From NCBI GenBank assembly GCA_016183805.1, contig JACPDX010000013.1, positions 124,001 through 188,000 of the forward strand: 64,000 bases of DNA, read 5' to 3'. This document shows positions 11,384 to 24,361 of this stretch, piece by piece. Made by a program: the position numbers and the translations under genes. Numbering within the stretch: the first letter of the stretch is position 1; the number at the start of each line of letters is the position of its first letter. The notes beneath the pieces are model-generated. The model was not told the DNA's origin. It saw only the letters and a list, made by a program, of their open reading frames with translations, and did not search any database. This stretch comes from Bacteroidota bacterium. Lineage in GTDB: Bacteria > Bacteroidota > Bacteroidia > Flavobacteriales_E > Vicingaceae.

Positions 11384-13246
11384 ATGGAAAAAAAATACGA
11401 TGTCATAGTTGTTGGAGCTGGTCATGCTGGTTGTGAAGCTGCTGCTGCTGCTGCAAATTTAGGCTCAAAAACATTGTTGATTACTATGAACATGAATGCA
11501 ATTGCACAAATGTCGTGTAATCCTGCAATGGGTGGCGTGGCAAAAGGTCAAATCGTAAGAGAAATTGATGCTTTAGGTGGTTATTCGGGTATTGTTAGCG
11601 ATAAAAGTGCTATACAATTTAAAATGCTCAACAAATCGAAAGGTCCTGCCATGTGGAGCCCAAGAACACAAAACGACAGGATGATGTTTTCTAACTTGTG
11701 GCGTTTAAAATTGGAACAAACCAAAAATTTGGATTTTTGGCAAGACATGGTTACTGAATTAATTATTAAAAATGGAGCCTGTTGCGGGGTAAAAACACAA
11801 ATTGGAATTGAGTTTAAATCTAATGCTGTTATATTAACCAATGGCACCTTTTTAAACGGTTTGATTCACATTGGCGAAAAACAATTTGGTGGTGGTAGGG
11901 CTGGCGACAAACCCTCTACAGGAATTACTGAACAATTAATTGCAAACGGATTTACTTCCGGACGAATGAAAACCGGAACACCACCGAGAGTAGATGGAAG
12001 AAGTTTAGATTACTCTAAAATGGAGGAACAACCAGGAGACGAAAAGCCATCGAAATTTTCATTTTCAGCTGAAACACAACCCTTATCGAAACAACGTAGT
12101 TGCTACATTACCTATACCAATGACGATGTTCATGATATTTTAAGAACAGGTTTCGAACAATCACCCATGTTTACAGGTCGTATTAAAGGGTTAGGACCAA
12201 GATATTGCCCATCCATAGAAGATAAAATTGTACGGTTTTCGGAGCGTAACAGACATCAATTATTTATTGAACCTGAAGGTTGGGACACGGTAGAAATATA
12301 TCTAAATGGATTTTCTACTTCTTTACCGGAAGATGTTCAAAATAAAGCCATGCGATTAATTCCAGGGTTTGAAAATGCCAAAATGTTTCGACCCGGATAC
12401 GCCATTGAATACGATTTTTTCCAGCCCACACAATTAAAAAGTACCCTGGAGACTAAAGGTATTAACAACCTATACTTTGCAGGACAAATTAATGGTACAA
12501 CCGGATATGAAGAAGCGGCAGGACAAGGTATTATTGCAGGAATTAATGCTCATCAAAAAATCAATGAAAACGAATCTTTTATTTTAAAAAGAGACGAAGC
12601 TTACATTGGTGTTTTAATTGATGATTTAGTTACCAAAGGAACTACAGAACCTTATCGAATGTTTACTTCAAGAGCAGAATATCGTATTTTATTACGTCAG
12701 GATAATGCCGATATTCGATTAACGCCTTTATCGAATGAAATAGGTTTAGCAACCGATGAGATGTTGCAAAAAGTCTTAACAAAAAATGAACAAGTAGCTT
12801 CTGTTATCAAACAATTTGAAGAAACCAGTTTAAATCCTGAGGATGTAAACGAATATTTGGAAACACAAAATTCATCATTAATAAAACAAAAAGTTAAAGC
12901 AAACACAGTGGTTACCCGACCAAACATAACCATTACTGATTTAATAAATTCCAGTAAAAAACTAGCTGAAAAACTATCAAATTACAACAATGAAGTGTTA
13001 GAAGGAGCTGAAATCTTGATGAAATACAACGGGTATATTGCTCGTGAAAAAGAAGTTGCAGGTAAAATGATGCGTTTAGAAAACATTAAAATTCGTGAAA
13101 ATATAGATTATAAAAAACTTTCTTCACTTTCTGCAGAAGCAGTAGAAAAATTGACCAAAATAAAACCAAGCACTATTGGGCAAGCAACTAGAATAAGCGG
13201 AATTTCTGCATCCGATATTTCGGTGTTAATGGTTCACATGAAGTAA
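11384..13246 (+). CDS. mnmG: tRNA uridine-5-carboxymethylaminomethyl modification enzyme MnmG
   Basis: The FAD-binding half of the MnmE-MnmG complex, which installs the cmnm5 group on U34 of several tRNAs. The N-terminal dinucleotide fold is [21 protein letters not shown] (first 20 residues of the fold start at about 6). The family signature [20 protein letters not shown] in pieces is at 45-65, the second FAD segment [19 protein letters not shown] at about 366-384, and a C-terminal helical tRNA/MnmE-binding domain covers 550-620. Length 620 is typical. The gene stands alone between two parS-like sites, the downstream palindrome beginning within its stop codon. Confidence 0.97.
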
Positions 13247-13247
13247 T

Positions 13248-13263
13248 TGTTTCACGTGAAACA
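13248..13263. other. Perfect parS palindrome downstream of mnmG
   Basis: TGTTTCACGTGAAACA is the textbook parS sequence. With flanking bases it is a 20-base perfect palindrome (13246-13265), starting at the last base of the mnmG stop codon. ParB/Spo0J family proteins bind such sites near chromosome origins. Confidence 0.88.
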
Positions 13264-13522
13264 ATCTTTTCACCAATTATATTAAAATCATTTCTGTCAA
13301 GTTGAGTTAATCGAAGAGTTGACCTTCAATTTTTTATAAAATCAATTAAACAATTGATTACCTGTGATTTAATTTGTTTTGTTGGAAATTTCTAAAAACT
13401 CTCGCCGTGTTTTTGGGCGATTTAAGCATATTTTGTGCTTCTGTAGTATGCTACCCTATTTTTTTGGAGAAAGTCGATTAGATTTAATAATAAATTAAGT
13501 GATTGATTATTAAATCTATGCA
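13264..13522. other. Intergenic region between mnmG and the accessory block
   Basis: About 260 bases with no supported gene. It contains an 8-base-pair hairpin AATCAATT-AAAC-AATTGATT (13340-13359), possibly the mnmG terminator, and several short inverted words around 13425-13455 (AAGCATATTTTGTGCTT; GTAGTATGCTAC). An RNA gene cannot be excluded, but no known family is recognised. Confidence 0.4.
13479..13518 (-). terminator. AT-rich hairpin after the flavin oxidoreductase gene
   Basis: Perfect 13-base arms TAGATTTAATAAT (13479-13491) and ATTATTAAATCTA (13506-13518) with a 14-base loop, five bases beyond the stop codon of the leftward gene that ends at 13523. The placement suggests a transcription terminator. 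Confidence 0.6.
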
Positions 13523-14974
<1,452 letters not shown>

Positions 14975-15047
14975 TTAAAAAAAGAATCTTTATGAAGCAT
15001 TAATTTCTCAGTTAAAAAATATTAAACTTGTAGAAAAATATTTCGTT

Positions 15048-15310
15048 GTGAAATTTCTTACATTATTAATTGGTGTTTCTTTAATTTTACTTTCTTGTCA
15101 ATCCGATAAAAATAGCGAATCATCTTCTATTACTTTAGAATCTGACAACCAATCTTTAAGAGAAATAAAAACAATGAAAGAATTTGTTAATACTATAAAA
15201 ATAGACTCCACATGGTTCACCTATTAGTTAAAAAGGCAAAAGCACAAAATATTTCTGTAAAAGAAATATTGAAAAGTGATGTTGAATATATGGTTTTCAC
15301 AAATGAATAA
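15048..15310 (+). pseudogene. Frameshifted small lipoprotein with one ~40-residue repeat module
   Basis: A GTG start at 15048 gives a signal peptide with a lipobox (LILLSCQ) and a short Ser/Asp-rich linker. The frame then reaches KIDSTW and ends at TAG 15225-15227. Shifting one frame right after that Trp (from CAC at 15218) restores the homologous sequence LLVKKAKAQNISVKEILKSD and ends at TAA 15308-15310, overlapping the next gene by ATGAATAA. The joined product matches the repeat module in the lipoprotein at 19768-20211 and in the C-terminus of the next protein. This is either a recent frameshift, a sequencing error, or much less likely a programmed shift. No slippery heptamer is evident at the junction TGGTTCACC. 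Confidence 0.7.
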
Positions 15311-17153
15311 TACCACCTCAAGTAAAACACCAAGATATTCAATCAAAAATCACATGAATAATCCCTCTGTCTTTTATAAGATGCTTTTTACTCTCTTATT
15401 AATTTTCGTATTTACTCTTTCATTTCAAATTTACGCCCCAATAAATTTTAAATTTTTAAATTCTGATCAAGGAATGCACGCTTTAATGGCGGCTAATTTT
15501 GATTTTAAGCATGGCTTTTATTACTGGGGGCAGAATAGACTTGGTAGTATATTACCATTACTAGCTTCTTTTTTAATTAAAATAAACATCTCTCCACTAT
15601 GGGCAGTTTCATTGGTTCAATATGCTTTTTTATTGGGCTTATATATACTTTTATTTAAACTTATTAATAATTACGTTTTAAAGTTATCCGCTGCAGTTTT
15701 TTTGTTTTTACCAATAGTTACACATATAGAATTATTAAATATTGGTCATCCATACGCCCCCCAATTATTTTTAAGTGTTTTACTATTTTACTTGTCTAAG
15801 TTAATTTCTAGCCATTTTTCACTTAAAAATATTCTTATAATATCTTTGTTTTGGATTATTAGTTTATTAGATATTTGGGTGTCAGAAATTTCCTTTATCG
15901 TTATTTTTATTATCGTTTGCTTTACACTTATTTTCTTATCTAATAATCAAAAATCAACAAAAGATAAAATTCTTCATCTAATACGAACCCCATTTTTTTT
16001 ATTACTACCAGTTAGTTTATTGGGTATATTCTATATTTACAGCAAAATAAAAATTCATTTTAAAGACCCTATTTTCGAAGCTTATGGTATAAATAGTATA
16101 GACAAAACTTACGAAGCTTTTACCACTCATTTTGAACGACTTTACCATACTATTTCGTTTTCAAATAATTTTTTAAACATAAACGCATTTACCGTCTTGT
16201 GTGTATTAGTTTTTATATATTTAGTAATAATCAACATTTATCAACATAAAAAACACATACTTAATAAAATAATAAGCAAAAATTATTTTATTTTTTTTAC
16301 GATAAGTATCGCAACATTTTCAGCGATTAATTTTACACAATGGGCAGGAATAGAAAATTATCCTCATAGATATTATGTGTTTAGTTACATTTCTTTTATT
16401 ACAGGCTTACTGCTTTGTGTTGATGATTTAACTCTAAATAAAAAAAATCATTTTATACTATTTATTACATTATTTACCTCCATTATTGGAGGATTAAGCT
16501 ACATTAAACTTGACAAAGAACAAACAAGATTTAAAATTGACAAAGAAGCCTATAAAACTTTAACATCACTCAACCAATCAACATTTATTGGAAATTATTG
16601 GTTCACTTATGTTATGGGGTCATATAATGCCGCTAAGATTACTTCAATTGTACCAGATCAATCCTATATAAGGAATCCACATCAATTAGATAAGGCATTT
16701 GAAAATGCTGAGGTCTTTTTAATTAAAAATAATTGGCTTAAAAGCTTTCCTGATACTATTTTACAATATGGAAACATGTTGATTAAAAATAAATTTAAAA
16801 CTGATATTATTATAGGGAATGCAACTGTTCACCAATATATTAATGAAGATTTATTAATAGAAAAAGATATCTTAAAAGAATTAAGGGATAAAATACTTGA
16901 AAACAAACAACAAGTTGATTTGATTCATAAAAAAGCAAAGCTTAATCATGTTACTTTTGATGATGTGCTGGAAAAAGATTTGTTAATATTATTGAAAAAA
17001 GAAAAAAAGATTAGAACATTAGAAAACAGCATACGAAGAAATAATAATTGGATGCTGTTAATTTTGGAAAAAGCCAAAAAAAGAAAAGTATCAATAGAAG
17101 AAATGATTAGGCTTGATGCTGAATATATGGTAAATCAAAATAATAATCAGTAA
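15303..17153 (+). CDS. GT-C-like polytopic membrane protein with C-terminal repeat module
   Basis: About eleven hydrophobic segments over residues 20-400. The first extramembrane loop contains NSDQGMHALMAANFDFKHGF, whose acidic residue near the end of TM1 is placed as in GT-C glycosyltransferases (ArnT/PMT-like, lipid-linked donor). A soluble part follows, and the last ~95 residues hold two copies of the unnamed repeat, the better one NNNWMLLILEKAKKRKVSIE followed by EMIRLDAEYM. The ATG at 15303 is preferred over a GTG at 15276 because it overlaps the upstream stop. Transferase activity is inferred from topology only. The tail is a fusion I do not know in GT-C enzymes; it probably faces the periplasm or cytoplasm as a protein-protein module. 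Confidence 0.7.
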   Translation: MNNTTSSKTPRYSIKNHMNNPSVFYKMLFTLLLIFVFTLSFQIYAPINFKFLNSDQGMHALMAANFDFKHGFYYWGQNRLGSILPLLASFLIKINISPLWAVSLVQYAFLLGLYILLFKLINNYVLKLSAAVFLFLPIVTHIELLNIGHPYAPQLFLSVLLFYLSKLISSHFSLKNILIISLFWIISLLDIWVSEISFIVIFIIVCFTLIFLSNNQKSTKDKILHLIRTPFFLLLPVSLLGIFYIYSKIKIHFKDPIFEAYGINSIDKTYEAFTTHFERLYHTISFSNNFLNINAFTVLCVLVFIYLVIINIYQHKKHILNKIISKNYFIFFTISIATFSAINFTQWAGIENYPHRYYVFSYISFITGLLLCVDDLTLNKKNHFILFITLFTSIIGGLSYIKLDKEQTRFKIDKEAYKTLTSLNQSTFIGNYWFTYVMGSYNAAKITSIVPDQSYIRNPHQLDKAFENAEVFLIKNNWLKSFPDTILQYGNMLIKNKFKTDIIIGNATVHQYINEDLLIEKDILKELRDKILENKQQVDLIHKKAKLNHVTFDDVLEKDLLILLKKEKKIRTLENSIRRNNNWMLLILEKAKKRKVSIEEMIRLDAEYMVNQNNNQ

Positions 17154-17166
17154 CAAGTGTGTTTGC

Positions 17167-17214
17167 TTTTACCCACTCTCAACACACCTTCATTAACTTC
17201 AGCAGTCATTTGTC
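17167..17214 (-). pseudogene. Remnant of a second, divergent pdxA 3' end
   Basis: The 48 bases align without gaps to the 3' end of pdxA at 23243-23290: 37 of 48 identical by hand count, 9 of the 11 differences transitions. Read leftwards, the codons give QMTAEVNEGVLRVGK against QMDAEINENVLKVSK in the intact gene, so the match is conserved at the protein level. Just before the aligned part the frame hits stop codons. This is a decayed end of another pdxA allele, lying directly after the GT-C-like gene. Confidence 0.7.
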
Positions 17215-17396
17215 ATTACTTGTAATGGCTATGCAAATCAATTCACAAGAGTTTTATATATCCATAGTGCTCTATGGAAATTAACTAGAATTAAAAAAAT
17301 GTAGTATATTGATAATTAAACCAATAGAATTAAAAATTAGGAAACAGATTGAAATTCGATAATTTTGTTACATATCTTCTTACAATTTACAATTAT
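17215..17396. other. Intergenic region before the metallophosphoesterase
   Basis: No gene is supported here. It contains a 7-base-pair hairpin TCCATAG-TGCT-CTATGGA (17261-17278), which may end transcription from the GT-C-like gene, and otherwise AT-rich sequence leading to the ATG at 17397. Confidence 0.4.
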
Positions 17397-18284
17397 ATGA
17401 AAAAGAATACTAGTCGTAATTTTATTAAATCCTCCATATTGATTTTTCTATTACTATTTTTATACGAGGTTAAAGCTCAAAGTAACGATACGTTGAAATA
17501 TGTTTTTTTTGGACACATTTATCAATGGGGTGACCAAACTAAGGTTGACTATAGAATTGAAAATATGGATTTATCGCAGTTTGATAGAATATGGTTGGGA
17601 GGAGATGTTTGTTCTGAGGCTTCTTTGGATTATTCTACACTATCCCATCTAAATGATTTATTTGATCTCGATAAACCAGGTAATCATTGGACGTTAGGAA
17701 ATCATGATGCGAGAAATGGAAATATAGAATGGATTACTTCGTTTACTAAAAGACCGACTTATTATAGTTATAGTGAAAATAATATAACCACAATGGTGAT
17801 GGATGGAAATCTCTCCCCATTAGATTGCGAAAACCTAAATAAACAATTTAAAATAATAAAAAATGTTTGTGATACCATAAATTCAGGAAGGCTTATTGTA
17901 CTGGTTCATCATGGTATTTATAACAATGTGCCCGGTGTTGCAAACCCTTCTTCGTATGGGCATTCTCTTTTAAAAAATTGGATATCGAATTGTTATGATG
18001 ATACAGCAACATACCTAAAATCTATCTATCCGATGTTAGTTTCTGTAAAAAATAGAGGAATAGATGTGATACAAATTATGGGGGATGTTGGGGCGAATCC
18101 TAATGCTAAATCTTATTACGGTATTTCAAATGATGGGGTAGAGTATTTTGGATCAGGAATAAACAATACCTATAATATGCTTCTTGGAATTCCTATTACA
18201 AGTCCGGACTTAATTTTAATTTTTAAACATGTTCTTTCAACAAATGAGTTATTTTGGGATTTTGTTGATTTAGATTCTTTCTGA
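17397..18284 (+). CDS. Secreted metallophosphoesterase-like protein with degenerate metal sites
   Basis: An N-terminal signal peptide (about 10-28, ending EVKAQ) suggests export. The body resembles calcineurin-like phosphoesterases: LGGDVC near residue 70, GNHDARNG near 105, LIVLVHHG near 175. The first motif, normally D-x-H, reads F-G-H, and the final G-H-x-H appears as MGDVGA, so at least three metal ligands are missing. Activity may be lost or the family may use another set of ligands. The start at the ATG of MKKNTSRN is chosen because the longer frame from a TTG at 17349 adds residues in front of a proper signal peptide. Convergent with the T9SS protein; partner genes unclear. Confidence 0.65.
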   Translation: MKKNTSRNFIKSSILIFLLLFLYEVKAQSNDTLKYVFFGHIYQWGDQTKVDYRIENMDLSQFDRIWLGGDVCSEASLDYSTLSHLNDLFDLDKPGNHWTLGNHDARNGNIEWITSFTKRPTYYSYSENNITTMVMDGNLSPLDCENLNKQFKIIKNVCDTINSGRLIVLVHHGIYNNVPGVANPSSYGHSLLKNWISNCYDDTATYLKSIYPMLVSVKNRGIDVIQIMGDVGANPNAKSYYGISNDGVEYFGSGINNTYNMLLGIPITSPDLILIFKHVLSTNELFWDFVDLDSF

Positions 18285-18296
18285 TAAAAATAGCTT

Positions 18297-19763
18297 TTAA
18301 TTAATGATAATCTTTCCTTTATGAGTGGACATACTAGTTTTGATGGTATATACATAAACCCCTATTGACAATAATGAGTCAAAATAAATAGTTCCGGATA
18401 ATTGATTAAAAACTTCCTTTTTAACAATTTTACCGGTTATATCAAATAGGGTAAATTCAAACGATTCTTCTTGTGACCCTTCATTTGGAAGAGTTATTTT
18501 TACAAATGTCCTTGCCGGATTTGGGTATATCATATATTGGATAGTTGTATCAATAGGTGGAGAAATAATTTCGTCTAACAATTTTATAACCTCCCCAGAA
18601 GCATCTAATTTTATAAAATAAAAATCGAAATCAAGTCCATTTCTGCTGTTAGAAGAACCTAAAACAGCAATAGTACCATCGTTTAAAAATTTACCACAAT
18701 TTCCGTATTCAGAAAAATTACCTCCAAAATTATTTTCCCAAACCACTGTACCACTAGAGTCAGTCTTTAAGCAATAAATATTCGGAATTTCATCTAATGT
18801 AAAACTACTTGATGTTCCAGTCAGTAATAAATTTCCATCCACATCCATGTCTATATCATTTCCATATTCGTAACCAACTCCACCATAATTTTTTCTCCAA
18901 ATTTCATTACCAGCAGAATCTATCTTATTTAAAGTAAGGTCAAAACTGCCATTAGTATTATTTAGGCTTGACCCAACAAAATAAAAATAATTATTACCAT
19001 CAGTTACTATTCTTTTGCCAAAATCATGGTTAATGCCACCAAAATATTTTCTCCAAATTTCATTACCCATCTTATCTGTTTTGAGTAGTATAATTTTAGA
19101 AGCATCATTACTTATATATTCGGATACATGTGCAATTTTATCTGCAAAAGAGCTGGTGTTTACTAGAAGTAAAATGGAGGAATCGGAGCATTCTATAACA
19201 TCCATACCAATATCATTGTTATTTGTATCATAAAATTTTTCCCATTCTTTTACACCATCTTTATTGATTTTAATTAAAAAAGTAGCTCCTGAAACCCCTG
19301 CAGCTCGATTTAAGCCAGTAATCAAAAATCCTTTATCAAATGTTTCAATAGTATTAAAAATATAGTCATCATCATTACCACCGAAATAGGATGTCCATAA
19401 AATAGCACCTGCAGTATCGTATTTTGTTACAAACCCTCCTGTTCTCGTTCCTGGAGCATCCCAAGAATGACCGATTACAAGAAGGTTTTGATCGGATATA
19501 GAAATAATTTTTGTAGAAATATCATGATGTATTCCCCCCCACTCAACATGATACAAATGCTGATAGTCGGAACTTACTTTTACTAAGGTCACATCTTCGC
19601 TTCCTGATCCAAAACTCCTGACTGTTCCAGTTAAATAGAAACTATTATTGTTTTCACAAAAATAAATTCCATTATCATTTTTTTCACCACCAAAATATTG
19701 GGCACTTATTGTGCTAGATAACCAAAGTAAGGATATTAAAAAGATTAGCTTACGATAAATCAT
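18297..19763 (-). CDS. Secreted propeller-like repeat protein with T9SS type A sorting tail
   Basis: A signal peptide (about 1-21, LLWLSSTISAQ) is followed by about six repeats of roughly 50 residues built on W-x3-F/Y-G-G-x3-D and ending G-x-L-L-x-G, for example WRKNYGGVGYEYGND. This pattern is typical of beta-propeller cell-surface proteins. The last ~80 residues are a type A sorting domain: YPNPARTFVKI, then FDITGKIVKKE, then GVYVYTIKT near the end. The protein is therefore secreted by the type IX system and anchored or released. The ligand is unknown. It lies 4 bases from the repeat lipoprotein gene on the same strand and likely shares its transcript. Confidence 0.85.
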   Translation of the reverse strand: MIYRKLIFLISLLWLSSTISAQYFGGEKNDNGIYFCENNNSFYLTGTVRSFGSGSEDVTLVKVSSDYQHLYHVEWGGIHHDISTKIISISDQNLLVIGHSWDAPGTRTGGFVTKYDTAGAILWTSYFGGNDDDYIFNTIETFDKGFLITGLNRAAGVSGATFLIKINKDGVKEWEKFYDTNNNDIGMDVIECSDSSILLLVNTSSFADKIAHVSEYISNDASKIILLKTDKMGNEIWRKYFGGINHDFGKRIVTDGNNYFYFVGSSLNNTNGSFDLTLNKIDSAGNEIWRKNYGGVGYEYGNDIDMDVDGNLLLTGTSSSFTLDEIPNIYCLKTDSSGTVVWENNFGGNFSEYGNCGKFLNDGTIAVLGSSNSRNGLDFDFYFIKLDASGEVIKLLDEIISPPIDTTIQYMIYPNPARTFVKITLPNEGSQEESFEFTLFDITGKIVKKEVFNQLSGTIYFDSLLSIGVYVYTIKTSMSTHKGKIIIN

Positions 19764-19767
19764 TTCA

Positions 19768-20211
19768 TTATTTTAATGACTCTTTAAGGCGTTTATTGTA
19801 AATAAATTCTGCATCATTTAATAAAACGACATCAACAGGTGTTTGTGTCTTTTCGGCTTTTTTCTCTATTTCAGACATCCATGCAGCGTCAGCTTTTATC
19901 GCATTTTTTATTTCTTCTATTTGATATTCGGGTGTTTTTTTTATTTTTTCATTATATGTCCATTCTGCATCCATTTTTATCATTTCATCAATGCTAATAC
20001 CTCTTTTCTCAGCTTTTTCTTTTATTATTTCCATCCATTTCAGGTCAGCTTTTATCACTGCAATATAATCTTCAACTGTTTCCGGTTCTTTTTTTACCGT
20101 TTGTGTTTGATTTGTATTAGCGTTTTGATCTACTGATTGGTTCTCAGAATCTGAAGAACTACATGCGAAGATAAAACCTAAAGATGCAATTAAAATCCAA
20201 TTTTTTTTCAT
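19768..20211 (-). CDS. Lipoprotein with two ~40-residue repeat modules
   Basis: 147 residues: a lipoprotein signal with FIFAC at Cys17, an Asn/Gln/Thr-rich linker (about 18-45), then two copies of a helical repeat. The first centres on KADLKWMEIIKEKAEKRGIS followed by IDEMIKMDAEW, the second on KADAAWMSEIEKKAEK followed by VLLNDAEFIYN. The same module occurs in the frameshifted lipoprotein at 15048 and at the C-terminus of the GT-C-like protein at 15303. I do not recognise it as a named domain. It sits between the T9SS propeller gene and the CotH/beta-helix lipoprotein gene, all leftward, and is probably anchored in the outer membrane. Confidence 0.75.
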   Translation of the reverse strand: MKKNWILIASLGFIFACSSSDSENQSVDQNANTNQTQTVKKEPETVEDYIAVIKADLKWMEIIKEKAEKRGISIDEMIKMDAEWTYNEKIKKTPEYQIEEIKNAIKADAAWMSEIEKKAEKTQTPVDVVLLNDAEFIYNKRLKESLK

Positions 20212-20240
20212 GTGTATAATTTATTAGTTATTAAATATAA

Positions 20241-23204
20241 TTAATTAAGTAGTTTATTTTCAAAGGTAATAGATGATCCTGATTCAACAAAAGAAGTGGT
20301 ATCAATTTTATTTAAATAATAGTTTTTCACATCAATAGTCGCAGAACCATATTCGGGCTTTTTTTGAAAAAGAGAAAAACCCAATTTACAATTTTCTATC
20401 TTTATGTTGTTAATCTTCACTGAAGATCGGTCTTTCGATGCAATCCCAATGTTTGCGGTATTAATATTGGTGTTGTTAATTAAAACTGTTGAACCTTCTC
20501 CACACGAAATTCCTTTATCTCCTGCATTTTTAACATTGCAGTTATTTATTTCGATAAAACTACCGGAAAAATCCATTCCATCATTACCAGTATTCATAAA
20601 CTTTGTGTCAACAACTTTTCCTTTACAAAAATCAGCATCAAATCCATCTCCAAAAGTATTGGTTATTGAGCAATTATAGACCTCAAAATTAGATTGAATA
20701 ATATTTAATGCATCCTCACATTTATTATTGTTAATAATACAGTTCTTTAAAAGAACATTCGCCTCATAAAAGGTTACAGATCCAGTTAGTGTCCATCCAA
20801 AATAATCAAATGTATTTAACCCTTCAAATATAACATAATTTAACCGTGAAGGAGAAGATGGGTGTAACACGGTAAATCCTTTTCCAGTTCCATCGGTTGA
20901 TGTAATTTTTATAGGTGCTTCTTTTGTTCCATTCATATGAATAGGCGAGTAACTTAAAAATCCTATGCTATTATTTAAAACAAGTTCAACACCTGATTCA
21001 AAAGTTACTGTATATCCTTTTGGTATAACAATATTGGTTTTAACGATATGTTTTCCCTTAACAAAGGTTATTTGTTTGTCTTTTATTTTATAAAAAGGAG
21101 AGTTGTTTGTTAGTGTGCCTTCAAACAATTTAGAAGAAGAAATGTTTGTAGTTGGTCTTGGCCAAGAAATAATTTTTGAAGAATAAATGGTCTCCGAAGA
21201 ATCCTTCAATACTTTAAAATATAATTTGCTAGTTTTTACGGGGATAGTAACTTCTTTATCCGGTTGATTTTTAGAAAATGCTGGCAGTATTATTTCTGAA
21301 TTTATCCTGATTATACTGTCTTTATTTATTTTGGAGGCGTATCCTATAACTTTTATGGGCGAACAATGGAAATTATTTAAACTTAATAAAACAGACCCAT
21401 TCTCGTTTTGTTTCTGTAAATGGACATTTAAAGAAATGTTTTTAAATACGTTGTTTACCTCACAGTTGCTGTTTATCGACTCTGAAAGGTTATAATGTAT
21501 AGTATTGGCTTTCTGTTTATACGACTGAAGTTCTTTACGTATGATTTTTGTGGTATTTATTAAACTATTTTTATTATAGAAATAACCTTCAAAATCGGTT
21601 TGTAACAATTGACTTAGCGAATCTATTTTCGGAGTCAATTCTTTTAATGTTGTATTAATATATTTTTCGCTCGAATAAAGTGTTAAATAGTCAATATAAT
21701 AGCTTAAAAAATCAGGATTATCAAATAGATTGAGGTATAAATACCATTCTAAAGACTCTATTTTATGATTACCAGAAGTTTCATTTCCTCTTATTTTTGC
21801 TTCGTGCAAATCGAAACTTCCTAATCCGGTATAACAATCATAAACAATAGGTTCTAACCTAGATATTACAGGATTGTAGTAAAATCGTTGATTATGCCAA
21901 TTATTAGCATGGATAACATTAAAAATATCCATTAATGCATAATTTTTTGCCATTCGCTTAATATCAAGATAATTTTGAGAATCTTCTTCTCCTGTTTTGT
22001 ATTTATACATTAAATTTTGGGCAATTAAAAATTGATGTTTTAATTTCTCCGTCTTTAATGTTTTCTTTTCTTTAAAAGGGGAAATGGTTGAAGCATAGAA
22101 ATAAGGTCTAGCAGGATAAATATTATTTTTTTGATGATAAAGATTACATTCCCAAAAACCTTCTTCTGAAAATTTTAAGATAGGACCTTCCCTCCTGTTC
22201 TTAGACTCAAGTAATTGTTTCTCAAAATGTTCTTCCAGATTATAGACACCTAAATATACTCCATTAATAGAAACAGGAACATATTCCATTCTAGTAGTTA
22301 ATAAGTCCTCTTTCTTACATATTTCGTGAGCTACCCATTCATGTAAAAAATCTCTAATCAGGGGGGATTGAATAGAAAAAGATTTAAGCCCCATAAAAGC
22401 AGCATTTTCTTCCTTAATTTTTATTCTGTACGACCATTTATTACTCGTTAAATGGTCTGTCCAATCGCCTTTTAATCTAATGCCAATTTTATAGCTTTTG
22501 TCTTTATATTTTAGTACCCCATCAAACTCCTTTTTTGAATTATTGTCAAGTACTTTATTTTTAACAGCAAAATCTCTATATCTGGCTAATTCCTGATAAT
22601 CTTGTGAAGACAATTCGATTTTTATACCATTGTTATTTTTGTCTTTCTGAAAAGAGCTATTCTCAACATACCTAATTACCTCAAAATTATCAAAATAAAC
22701 AGGGTCTAATTTTTCACCACCATAATACACATAGATTTTAATACCACCTAATTTAGTGATGTCTTGTGGCAGTTTAATAGTCAAATTAATTTTTTCCCAT
22801 CCTGATTCATTATTTTTTGTATAACTAACTTTGTTTGCGTAATACAATTCATTATTTTTTGAAGAAATTACAATGGAACCATTTTTTCCAGAACTCTTTC
22901 TATAAACAGAGGCTTTGATAACTTCTCCCGGCTGAACATCATCAAATACAAGCCCCATCCCATAGAGATTGGATTGATTTAATTCACAAGAATAAGTACC
23001 ATCAAATGAATGTTTATCAGTTTGAATACCACCATCAAATAGAACATGGTTGGTCGTAAATTTTTTTTCTGCATTATCATAATCTTCTGCATCACAGAAT
23101 AAAATGGTAGTCCCATCAATTCCTTCCACAACTATATTCTCTTGACAAGAAAGAACACTAGTGATTACTAGAATCGAAAAGAAAGATTTAATCTTATTTA
23201 GCAT
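20241..23204 (-). CDS. CotH-kinase-like lipoprotein with C-terminal parallel beta-helix
   Basis: A 987-residue lipoprotein (lipobox LSCQ, Cys20) in three parts. Residues 25-185 look like a carbohydrate-binding-type beta sandwich. Residues about 195-560 resemble the CotH family, atypical protein kinases of spore coats: RLKGDWTDHL, KSFSIQSP, LHEWVAHEICKKED and VYNLEEHFEKQ, with VYDCYTGLGSFD as the probable metal/catalytic segment. After a linker, residues about 760-960 form a right-handed parallel beta-helix with repeated N-N-C and G-D-G-x-D turns. Transcription likely starts from the promoter inside the pdxA 3' end. Substrate unknown: kinase toward a surface protein, or glycan-related, are both open. 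Confidence 0.78.
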   Translation of the reverse strand: MLNKIKSFFSILVITSVLSCQENIVVEGIDGTTILFCDAEDYDNAEKKFTTNHVLFDGGIQTDKHSFDGTYSCELNQSNLYGMGLVFDDVQPGEVIKASVYRKSSGKNGSIVISSKNNELYYANKVSYTKNNESGWEKINLTIKLPQDITKLGGIKIYVYYGGEKLDPVYFDNFEVIRYVENSSFQKDKNNNGIKIELSSQDYQELARYRDFAVKNKVLDNNSKKEFDGVLKYKDKSYKIGIRLKGDWTDHLTSNKWSYRIKIKEENAAFMGLKSFSIQSPLIRDFLHEWVAHEICKKEDLLTTRMEYVPVSINGVYLGVYNLEEHFEKQLLESKNRREGPILKFSEEGFWECNLYHQKNNIYPARPYFYASTISPFKEKKTLKTEKLKHQFLIAQNLMYKYKTGEEDSQNYLDIKRMAKNYALMDIFNVIHANNWHNQRFYYNPVISRLEPIVYDCYTGLGSFDLHEAKIRGNETSGNHKIESLEWYLYLNLFDNPDFLSYYIDYLTLYSSEKYINTTLKELTPKIDSLSQLLQTDFEGYFYNKNSLINTTKIIRKELQSYKQKANTIHYNLSESINSNCEVNNVFKNISLNVHLQKQNENGSVLLSLNNFHCSPIKVIGYASKINKDSIIRINSEIILPAFSKNQPDKEVTIPVKTSKLYFKVLKDSSETIYSSKIISWPRPTTNISSSKLFEGTLTNNSPFYKIKDKQITFVKGKHIVKTNIVIPKGYTVTFESGVELVLNNSIGFLSYSPIHMNGTKEAPIKITSTDGTGKGFTVLHPSSPSRLNYVIFEGLNTFDYFGWTLTGSVTFYEANVLLKNCIINNNKCEDALNIIQSNFEVYNCSITNTFGDGFDADFCKGKVVDTKFMNTGNDGMDFSGSFIEINNCNVKNAGDKGISCGEGSTVLINNTNINTANIGIASKDRSSVKINNIKIENCKLGFSLFQKKPEYGSATIDVKNYYLNKIDTTSFVESGSSITFENKLLN

Positions 23205-23228
23205 AATAGTTTAATTTTAAAAAAGGTA

Positions 23229-23258
23229 CAAATTTATTTATTTTTTACTCACCTTCAA
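23229..23258 (-). promoter_or_regulatory. Promoter of the CotH-like lipoprotein gene
   Basis: On the minus strand TTG (23256-23258), a 19-base spacer and TAAATTTG (23229-23236) match the Bacteroidota -33/-7 consensus exactly. The -33 element is a leucine codon in the last codons of pdxA. The predicted leader is roughly 20 bases to the ATG at 23204. Confidence 0.6.
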
Positions 23259-24287
23259 CACATTCTCATTAATCTCAGCATCCATTTGGCGGTTTCTATA
23301 AATATCGATGGCTTGATAGATAGCTGAACGGAATGATTGTTCGTTAGCTATGTTTTTACCAGCAATATCGTAAGCCACTCCATGGTCGGGAGAAGTTCTA
23401 ATGATATTTAAACCAGCGGTAAAATTAACCCCTTCACCAAATGATAAGGTTTTAAAAGGGATTAAACCTTGGTCGTGATACATAGCGAGTATAGCATCGA
23501 ATTTTTTGTAATTGGCGGAGCCAAAAAAACCATCGGCAGGATAAGGACCAAAAACTTGTAAACCTATACTTTTTGCATTGTTTATGGCAGGAGTAATAAT
23601 TTCTTGTTCTTCTTTACCAATTAAACCGTTATCACCAGCGTGAGGGTTTAATCCTAAAACGGCTATTCGTGGACTGTTGATGGCAAAATCTTGAACCAGA
23701 CTTTTGTTTAAAATCTTTAGTTTTGAAAATATTTTGTCAACCGTTAAACTTTTTGAAATAGCCGAAACCGGAATATGGTTAGTAGCTATTCCAACTTTCA
23801 AATTTTCATTGTTTAACAACATCAACGATTCTCCTTCAAATTTCTCGGTTAAATATTCGGTGTGTCCGGAAAAATTAAATTGGTCGGATTGAATGTTGTC
23901 TTTATTTATTGGGGCTGTTACAATGGCATCAATTTTCCCATCAAACAAATCTTTGCAGGCTGCTTCTAACGATAAAAAAGAGTATTTTCCGGCAGCTACA
24001 GTAGATTTTCCGAGAGTTAATTCAACCTCTTCGCTCCAGCAGCTCACCATATTGGCTTTTTTAGGACTTGCTTCTTCTACTTTGGTAATTTTATTGAAAC
24101 TAAATTCTCCAGCATCAAGTGTTTTTCTATAATTGTTAGCCAATTTTGTAGAACCATAAACTATTGGTGTGCACAAATCCAAAATTTGCTGATCCATAAA
24201 CGTTTTTATGATTACTTCTAAACCTATTCCGTTGTAATCGCCAATGCTGATTCCAATTCTTATCTTATCGTTAGTTCTTTTCGTCAT
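23238..24287 (-). CDS. pdxA: 4-hydroxythreonine-4-phosphate dehydrogenase PdxA
   Basis: NAD-dependent oxidation of 4-phosphohydroxy-L-threonine in the DXP-dependent pyridoxal phosphate pathway; cytoplasmic dimer. Visible are IRIGISIGDYNGIGLEV at the N-terminus, VTAPINKDN, FSGHTEYL with the metal histidine, MYHDQGLIPFKTL with the second metal site, and IIRTSPDHGVAYDIAGKN near the C-terminus. The start at 24287 (MTKRTNDKIRIGIS) is chosen because the longer frame from 24329 runs into a word-repeat spacer (ATGACCATTGACCAATGGC). The 349-residue product is of normal length. A divergent copy of its 3' end lies at 17167-17214. Confidence 0.95.
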   Translation of the reverse strand: MTKRTNDKIRIGISIGDYNGIGLEVIIKTFMDQQILDLCTPIVYGSTKLANNYRKTLDAGEFSFNKITKVEEASPKKANMVSCWSEEVELTLGKSTVAAGKYSFLSLEAACKDLFDGKIDAIVTAPINKDNIQSDQFNFSGHTEYLTEKFEGESLMLLNNENLKVGIATNHIPVSAISKSLTVDKIFSKLKILNKSLVQDFAINSPRIAVLGLNPHAGDNGLIGKEEQEIITPAINNAKSIGLQVFGPYPADGFFGSANYKKFDAILAMYHDQGLIPFKTLSFGEGVNFTAGLNIIRTSPDHGVAYDIAGKNIANEQSFRSAIYQAIDIYRNRQMDAEINENVLKVSKK

Positions 24288-24361
24288 ATTTTTCTCGTTT
24301 TTGGTCATTAGCCATTGGTCAATGGTCATTTGTTGCTTCCAACTTCCAACTTCGGTCTCCT

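Follow-up and report, generated by a model that had tools for sequence, protein, structure and literature searches.

An unnamed module on unrelated envelope proteins of Bacteroidia, with a possible role in assembling polysaccharide-modifying machinery

Unrelated envelope proteins of Bacteroidia, chiefly enzymes acting on sugar polymers by decoration or trimming, carry a real, widespread and unnamed module, predicted to fold autonomously into three helices. We infer its function from the proteins that bear it and from the arrangement of their genes, and propose, with a probability of roughly 45%, that it may be an assembly (docking or tethering) device for the extracytoplasmic polysaccharide-modifying machinery of these bacteria. 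The initial annotation described the repeat in one window (the whole 64-kb stretch of DNA analyzed, from a member of the Vicingaceae); the system is far wider than could be seen there, and the module occurs most often on AlgX-type acetyltransferases and GH16-like lipoproteins. Outside the alginate, cellulose, and PNAG systems, little is known of how polysaccharide machines of the envelope are held together, and annotation of the corresponding Bacteroidota loci mostly proceeds one gene at a time. The module offers a handle for assigning uncharacterized GT-C-like, CotH, GH16-like, and acetyltransferase genes to one machine, and single modules and module-only lipoproteins are small soluble pieces suited to direct binding tests.

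Five Copies in the Window

The initial annotation had reported five copies of one repeat within 5 kb (window 15048–20211), and all five were recovered where it had placed them. Because a profile made from the window copies would be circular, the detection profile was rebuilt from 26 copies that all come from other genomes, with zero window rows. A generic helical chance match was rejected, since the top score among 24,440 shuffled window ORFs was 10.4 bits. The intact lipoprotein (19768..20211, minus strand, 147 residues) comprises the lipobox IFAC, a linker of about 25 residues, and then solely two modules: copy 1 (19936..20085, minus strand, 53.1 bits), with predicted helices at residues 46–55, 57–70, and 74–91, and copy 2 (19780..19929, minus strand, 38.6 bits), with predicted helices at residues 94–107, 109–122, and 126–146.

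Two further modules form the C-terminal tail of a putative GT-C-like membrane protein with multiple transmembrane (TM) segments (15303..17153, plus strand, 616 residues). Its copy 2 (17004..17150, plus strand, 51.5 bits) is canonical and extends to the C terminus. Copy 1 (approximately 16863..17009, plus strand) is degenerate, with W changed to Q, at a position that is 94% conserved, and DA changed to DL; its score of 9.6 bits lies within the shuffled range, and it is credible only because it stands in tandem register with copy 2. The core IxxxxxW(L/M/Y)xx(I/V)xxKA...S...DA is in register in both lipoprotein copies and in copy 2 of the membrane protein, and is lost in part at 16863–17009, where W and DA are both missing.

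The fifth copy belongs to a broken lipoprotein gene. Its 5′ part (15048..15227, plus strand), encoding a signal peptide, the lipobox ...LLSC, a linker, and the first third of one module, terminates at an in-frame TAG within the module. The N-terminal piece of this module (15171..15233, plus strand) scores E = 2.1e-4 with profile A1 and 8.0 bits with the independent profile, and the C-terminal piece, in a shifted frame (15215..15307, plus strand), scores E = 3.3e-12 and 30.0 bits, respectively. An intact 138-residue two-module lipoprotein in a genome of the same genus (L039:5897–6313) is the positional counterpart of the broken gene, and an FAD oxidoreductase gene adjoins both.

No tandem repeat at the DNA level was found in the window, which implies that the copies are old and diverged; recent duplication or an assembly artefact was rejected on the same ground. 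The rest of the window's own 3.47-Mb genome (G000) contained no further site at E < 0.005, and the whole-genome search gave one weak extra candidate (E 0.006–0.013) at the C terminus of a 717-residue multi-TM protein on contig C51.

Sequence and Predicted Fold

The 323 collected copies, 219 of them at less than 60% mutual identity, follow the consensus I(K/R)xx(D/N)xxW(L/M/Y)xx(I/V)xxKAxxxxISx(E/D)xx(L/I)xxDAx(W/Y), in which conservation peaks at I (82%), W (94%), K (76%), A (92%), S (55%), D (68%), A (93%), and W/Y/F (93%). Structure prediction, proposed as a check when the repeat was first noticed, returned a confident three-helix unit: the AlphaFold model of the window lipoprotein, made together with 31 other two-module sequences, has pLDDT values of 96–99 over the modules, each with three helices, in tandem. 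The predicted structure of a GH16-like carrier (L041) again has three helices in the module (162–174/176–189/193–209), which is placed between β strands of the N-terminal β-rich domain. These models suggest an autonomous unit of approximately 46–50 residues.

The residues that vary least (I, W, I/V, A, L/I, A, W/Y) are spaced 3–4 residues apart, and D/N and S are N-caps. Folding can explain all of them, so that the pattern gives no evidence of a conserved binding surface, which counts against docking. Retention of W, A, and A at 92%–94% over 219 copies and many families implies strong selection.

Relation to Named Domains

The view that no named domain has this signature was borne out: neither single copies nor profiles of 30 and 110 rows, used as queries, gave a trustworthy match to the module in Pfam (2025), NCBIfam (2026), or PDB sequences, and Foldseek gave nothing better than E = 1.2 (PDB) or E = 0.78 (the BFVD viral library). 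PDB matches at E 1e-8 were rejected, as they are to designed toroids and knots whose totals add up many pieces of 4–8 bits, none of them significant singly. The sequence searches indicate an unnamed and apparently undescribed family that merits a domain-database entry.

The nearest likeness is to the ribbon-helix-helix (RHH) proteins (CopG/Arc/FitA), as helices 2–3 of the module (KAxxxGISxEE) locally resemble RHH helices A–B. Four of 32 members match PF22513 (one of them best, at E = 6.4e-5), a few copies match PF01402/PF12441 at E of about 0.01, Arc (1baz) superimposes at 1.6 Å over 31 residues but with a Foldseek E of 9, and ORF56 appears in the PDB search at E = 0.32. Membership was rejected: the window lipoprotein scores 14.9 bits against the 20.5 required for PF01402, and its first module scores 16.1 against 20.5 (PF01402) and 14 against 28 (PF12441). 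Where RHH proteins have an N-terminal DNA-binding β strand before helix A, the module has a helix (DSSP of the model); moreover, the module-bearing proteins are predicted to be extracytoplasmic, and the resemblance is weak and confined to few copies. Given the weak scores and the replacement of the β strand by a helix, the likeness is only a lead, and it may reflect convergence on a helix-capping motif.

Dockerins offer a parallel of another kind, being likewise short helical modules, often in tandem, on many unrelated carbohydrate-active enzymes. However, the module has no Pfam dockerin match, its consensus lacks the duplicated calcium-binding loop-helix motif, and no cohesin-like receptor was seen among the carriers examined.

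Carrier Families

Grouping of the first 106 carrier ORFs, with the module masked, gave at least 10 host families that are mutually unrelated. AlgX-like SGNH proteins (39 + 3 of the 106) and GH16-like lipoproteins (23) are accompanied by CotH proteins (4), GDSL-type proteins with three TMs (3), module-only lipoproteins (4, all from the window's family), and several separate multi-TM families. Pfam assignments confirmed among carriers and neighbors are PF16822, PF08757, PF13472, and PF03062; tagged AlgX-like proteins match PF16822 (E = 5e-14, 5e-13), and the MBOAT gene beside a tagged AlgX matches PF03062 (E = 8.5e-34). The GH16 identity of the second carrier is based on its predicted fold and catalytic motif: the best Foldseek match is lichenase 1gbg (E = 2.2e-9), and the E-I-D-x-E motif, as EIDIE/EIDFE, is present in 105 of 107 GH16-like proteins. 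PF00722 matches one of the three scanned (L043, E = 5e-5), the other two being unmatched.

The module is C-terminal in most carriers. AlgX-like proteins have one to three copies, occasionally more (up to three or four repeats), and in 77 of 79 GH16-like relatives the module is inserted mid-protein, in a loop of the N-terminal β-domain. Every carrier is probably extracytoplasmic (periplasmic).

Patchy Distribution and Optional Presence

The profile search outside the locus, also suggested at the outset as a check, located the module in 23 of the 46 genomes that represent the window's family (30-row profile), in 5 of 7 genomes of the order of G039, and in 7 of 24 genomes from the G058 family. 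Neither a named domain nor confinement to this locus, the two outcomes that would have told against the initial annotation, was seen. An even sample of the class gave 98 carriers among 395 genomes, spread over 53 of 196 genera, whereas none of 395 other genomes in a differently drawn sample of the phylum had it. The strict family restriction suggested by the latter was rejected on the class figures, and the two samples together imply a patchy, not family-specific, occurrence. Carriers were placed in Vicingaceae, other Flavobacteriales, Bacteroidales, Lentimicrobiaceae, Salinivirgaceae, and Sphingobacteriaceae, with further ones in a Sediminibacterium MAG and a MAG labelled Chlorobiota.

Close relatives differ in whether they have the module. 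Within the window's family, seven full-length AlgX relatives end no more than 21 residues past the catalytic domain, without it, and in two GH16 relatives that lack the insert the flanks GNPR... and ...RWKRNPR are joined cleanly. Two AlgX proteins inside the module cluster of G002 are tagged and one elsewhere in that genome is not, one of two adjacent AlgX genes in G459 has no tag, and the GH16 protein of L257 is untagged although it adjoins a tagged AlgX.

Decay seems to recur at module loci, as with the lipoprotein at window 15048. AlgX-like genes are broken by stops or frame changes at L265 / G030:C34 and L280 / G453:C39, and in G030 the module is found downstream, in an ORF of its own (L053:6470–6913).

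Clustering of Carriers

Many genomes have a single carrier only. Where the window's family has two or more in a genome, they mostly lie within about 10 kb of one another, an arrangement that we estimate at below 1% for two randomly placed genes in a 3-Mb genome. Five carrier genes occupy about 9 kb in G002, three are clustered in each of G031 and G452, and two in each of G003, G014, and G029. Inspection of flanks of about 10 kb around 79 GH16 loci, collected via patterns outside the module, revealed another module carrier in 45 and an AlgX in 39; all 63 AlgX proteins near GH16 are tagged. In a different set, of loci with a tagged AlgX, 34 of 35 contain an MBOAT gene. The sample is phylogenetically correlated, and these locus counts are therefore not independent events. 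In several Bacteroidales MAGs, mostly ruminant (L239, L243, L244, L256, L258), three to five tagged AlgX-like genes lie within 10 kb of a GH16 gene.

Modules of the same locus on different hosts are 28.7% alike, a value reached in 7 of 1000 shuffles, compared with 27.4% by chance pairing. As the excess is 1.2 percentage points and shared ancestry could explain it, within-locus co-evolution was not taken as support.

Proposed Role and Alternatives

The suggestion that the repeat connects components of one envelope system gains indirect support from the clustering, in shared loci, of unrelated carriers that are predicted to be extracytoplasmic. In the assembly reading, one to three modules have been added C-terminally to AlgX-type O-acetyltransferases, multi-TM proteins (partly GT-C), and CotH proteins, or inserted in a GH16-like lipoprotein, and the tagged enzymes would be those that make a cell-envelope polysaccharide, acetylate it, or trim it. 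Modules of the proteins of one locus would associate mutually or with one common partner, which would keep the membrane-bound polymerizing and acetylating steps beside the trimming step. The module-only lipoproteins, consisting of a lipid anchor, a linker, and two modules, would act as adaptors that tie the tagged enzymes to the membrane; with no other part present in them, the module itself must be the working part. Both the physical association of the carriers and the adaptor role are conjectured. The optional presence of the tag speaks for this reading; points against it are the many genomes with a lone carrier, the lack of an AlgX relative in the window genome, the untagged AlgX of G459 and GH16 of L257 beside tagged genes, and the marginal likeness of modules within a locus.

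Connections of this type have a precedent in the alginate machine of Pseudomonas, in which dedicated periplasmic proteins join an AlgX-type SGNH acetyltransferase to other components: AlgF binds AlgJ and AlgX and mediates their contact in alginate acetylation (PMC10641220), and AlgK binds AlgX (PMC9734138). The need for such connections is thus established in a related machine, and an MBOAT gene is adjacent both there and in the AlgX module loci. The module-only lipoproteins would be comparable in role to AlgF and AlgK. AlgF and AlgK are separate proteins, however, whereas the enzymes of the module loci carry a small module within their own chains, and PDB searches revealed no relation in sequence or fold between the module and AlgF or AlgK. 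With respect to MBOAT-SGNH systems more generally (AlgI/AlgX, PatA/PatB), the tagged AlgX-like proteins are likewise PF16822 members with a PF03062 MBOAT neighbor, but differ in having one to three extra C-terminal helical modules and in often standing beside a GH16-like lipoprotein with the same module. A search of open-license papers turned up none that treats GH16, MBOAT, and O-acetyltransferase together in Flavobacteriales.

The main rival, which we consider somewhat unlikely, is that the module binds a non-protein envelope ligand (exopolysaccharide, peptidoglycan, or a lipid surface) and concentrates each enzyme on its substrate independently, the carriers clustering since all act on one polymer. 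It would account for much of the evidence given above for assembly. It accords with polysaccharide being the substrate of most carriers whose type is known (AlgX, GH16, PMT-type GT), with the one to three tandem copies usual for avidity-driven binding modules, and with the presence of one module on unrelated enzymes, as for carbohydrate-binding modules; yet CotH proteins and module-only lipoproteins are tagged too, an all-helical fold is unusual among carbohydrate-binding modules, and the conserved aromatics resemble core residues by their spacing.

A more specific form of the assembly reading, which we regard as unlikely, is that of an undescribed docking system in which AlgX, GH16, GT-C-like, and CotH proteins would pair through their modules, perhaps in the manner of RHH dimers minus the DNA-binding ribbon, assembling locus-specific complexes with the module-only lipoproteins as membrane adaptors.

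It is quite improbable that the module serves, much like the T9SS sorting domain, as a tag for location or stability that an envelope-wide factor recognizes (a sorting or retention factor, a chaperone, or a protease), rather than as a machine connector. Its mostly C-terminal position, optional presence, and very diverse hosts would suit a tag of this kind, but not its mid-protein position in the GH16 relatives or its repetition up to three or four times. A general tag should also scatter over the genome, and the concentration of the module in particular loci, with almost every other envelope protein of a given genome lacking it, counts against this explanation. Equally improbable is a mobile, nearly neutral helical appendage spreading among neighboring envelope genes by recombination: differences among close relatives, the broken copy in the window, and the slight excess similarity within loci would fit, but the core W, A, and A are kept across families, and the window has no residual DNA-level repeat.

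Setting of the Window Locus

No AlgX relative was found in the window genome, and neither of the carriers commonest overall, GH16-like and AlgX-type, is module-tagged there; any docking in this genome would thus be of the lipoprotein with the membrane protein. The description of the latter as GT-C-like fared unevenly: GT-C homology of the window protein has no Pfam or PDB match, and the idea holds for a carrier in another genome, which belongs to PMT_2 (E = 1e-21). The window protein is of multi-TM topology; an acidic residue (NSDQGMH) comes after its first hydrophobic stretch and may or may not correspond to the acidic catalytic motif of GT-C enzymes in the first periplasmic loop. BLAST similarity to the L040 membrane protein is significant only in the modules. 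The intact lipoprotein has the acidic stretch SSSDSE directly after the lipobox cysteine, which resembles surface-export signals of Bacteroidota and may point to the surface location that the initial annotation gave it. If surface-exposed, the lipoprotein could not meet the periplasmic tail of an inner-membrane protein, a difficulty for the pairing first suggested.

The module-bearing genes lie between genes that we take to be mnmG (11384–13246) and a pdxA-like gene (23238–24329). This interval (window 13247–24329) is a variable envelope-gene island with conserved flanks, in the genus and the family: beside mnmG and/or pdxA, other genomes of the same genus or family (L038, L039, L120, L121) have differing envelope genes, repeatedly including module carriers, with contents that span CotH, GTs, MBOAT/AlgX, and lipoproteins. 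In the window the island starts with the FAD oxidoreductase gene (13523–14953). A secreted metallophosphoesterase-like protein (17349–18284, plus strand; PF00149 just under cut-off) is encoded next to the module-tailed membrane protein, and a T9SS type A sorting-domain protein with weak β-propeller repeats (18297–19763, minus strand), itself without the module, stands between two module-bearing genes. The 987-residue CotH-kinase and β-helix lipoprotein (20241..23204, minus strand) likewise has no module, and in related genomes the gene next to its counterpart encodes a CotH protein with a C-terminal module. Such adjacent CotH pairs occur at L120:1329–6296, L121:1468–6444, and L038:13078–18000, each made up of a CotH/β-helix/lamin-tail lipoprotein of about 1000 residues and a CotH protein of about 655 residues with the module at its C terminus.
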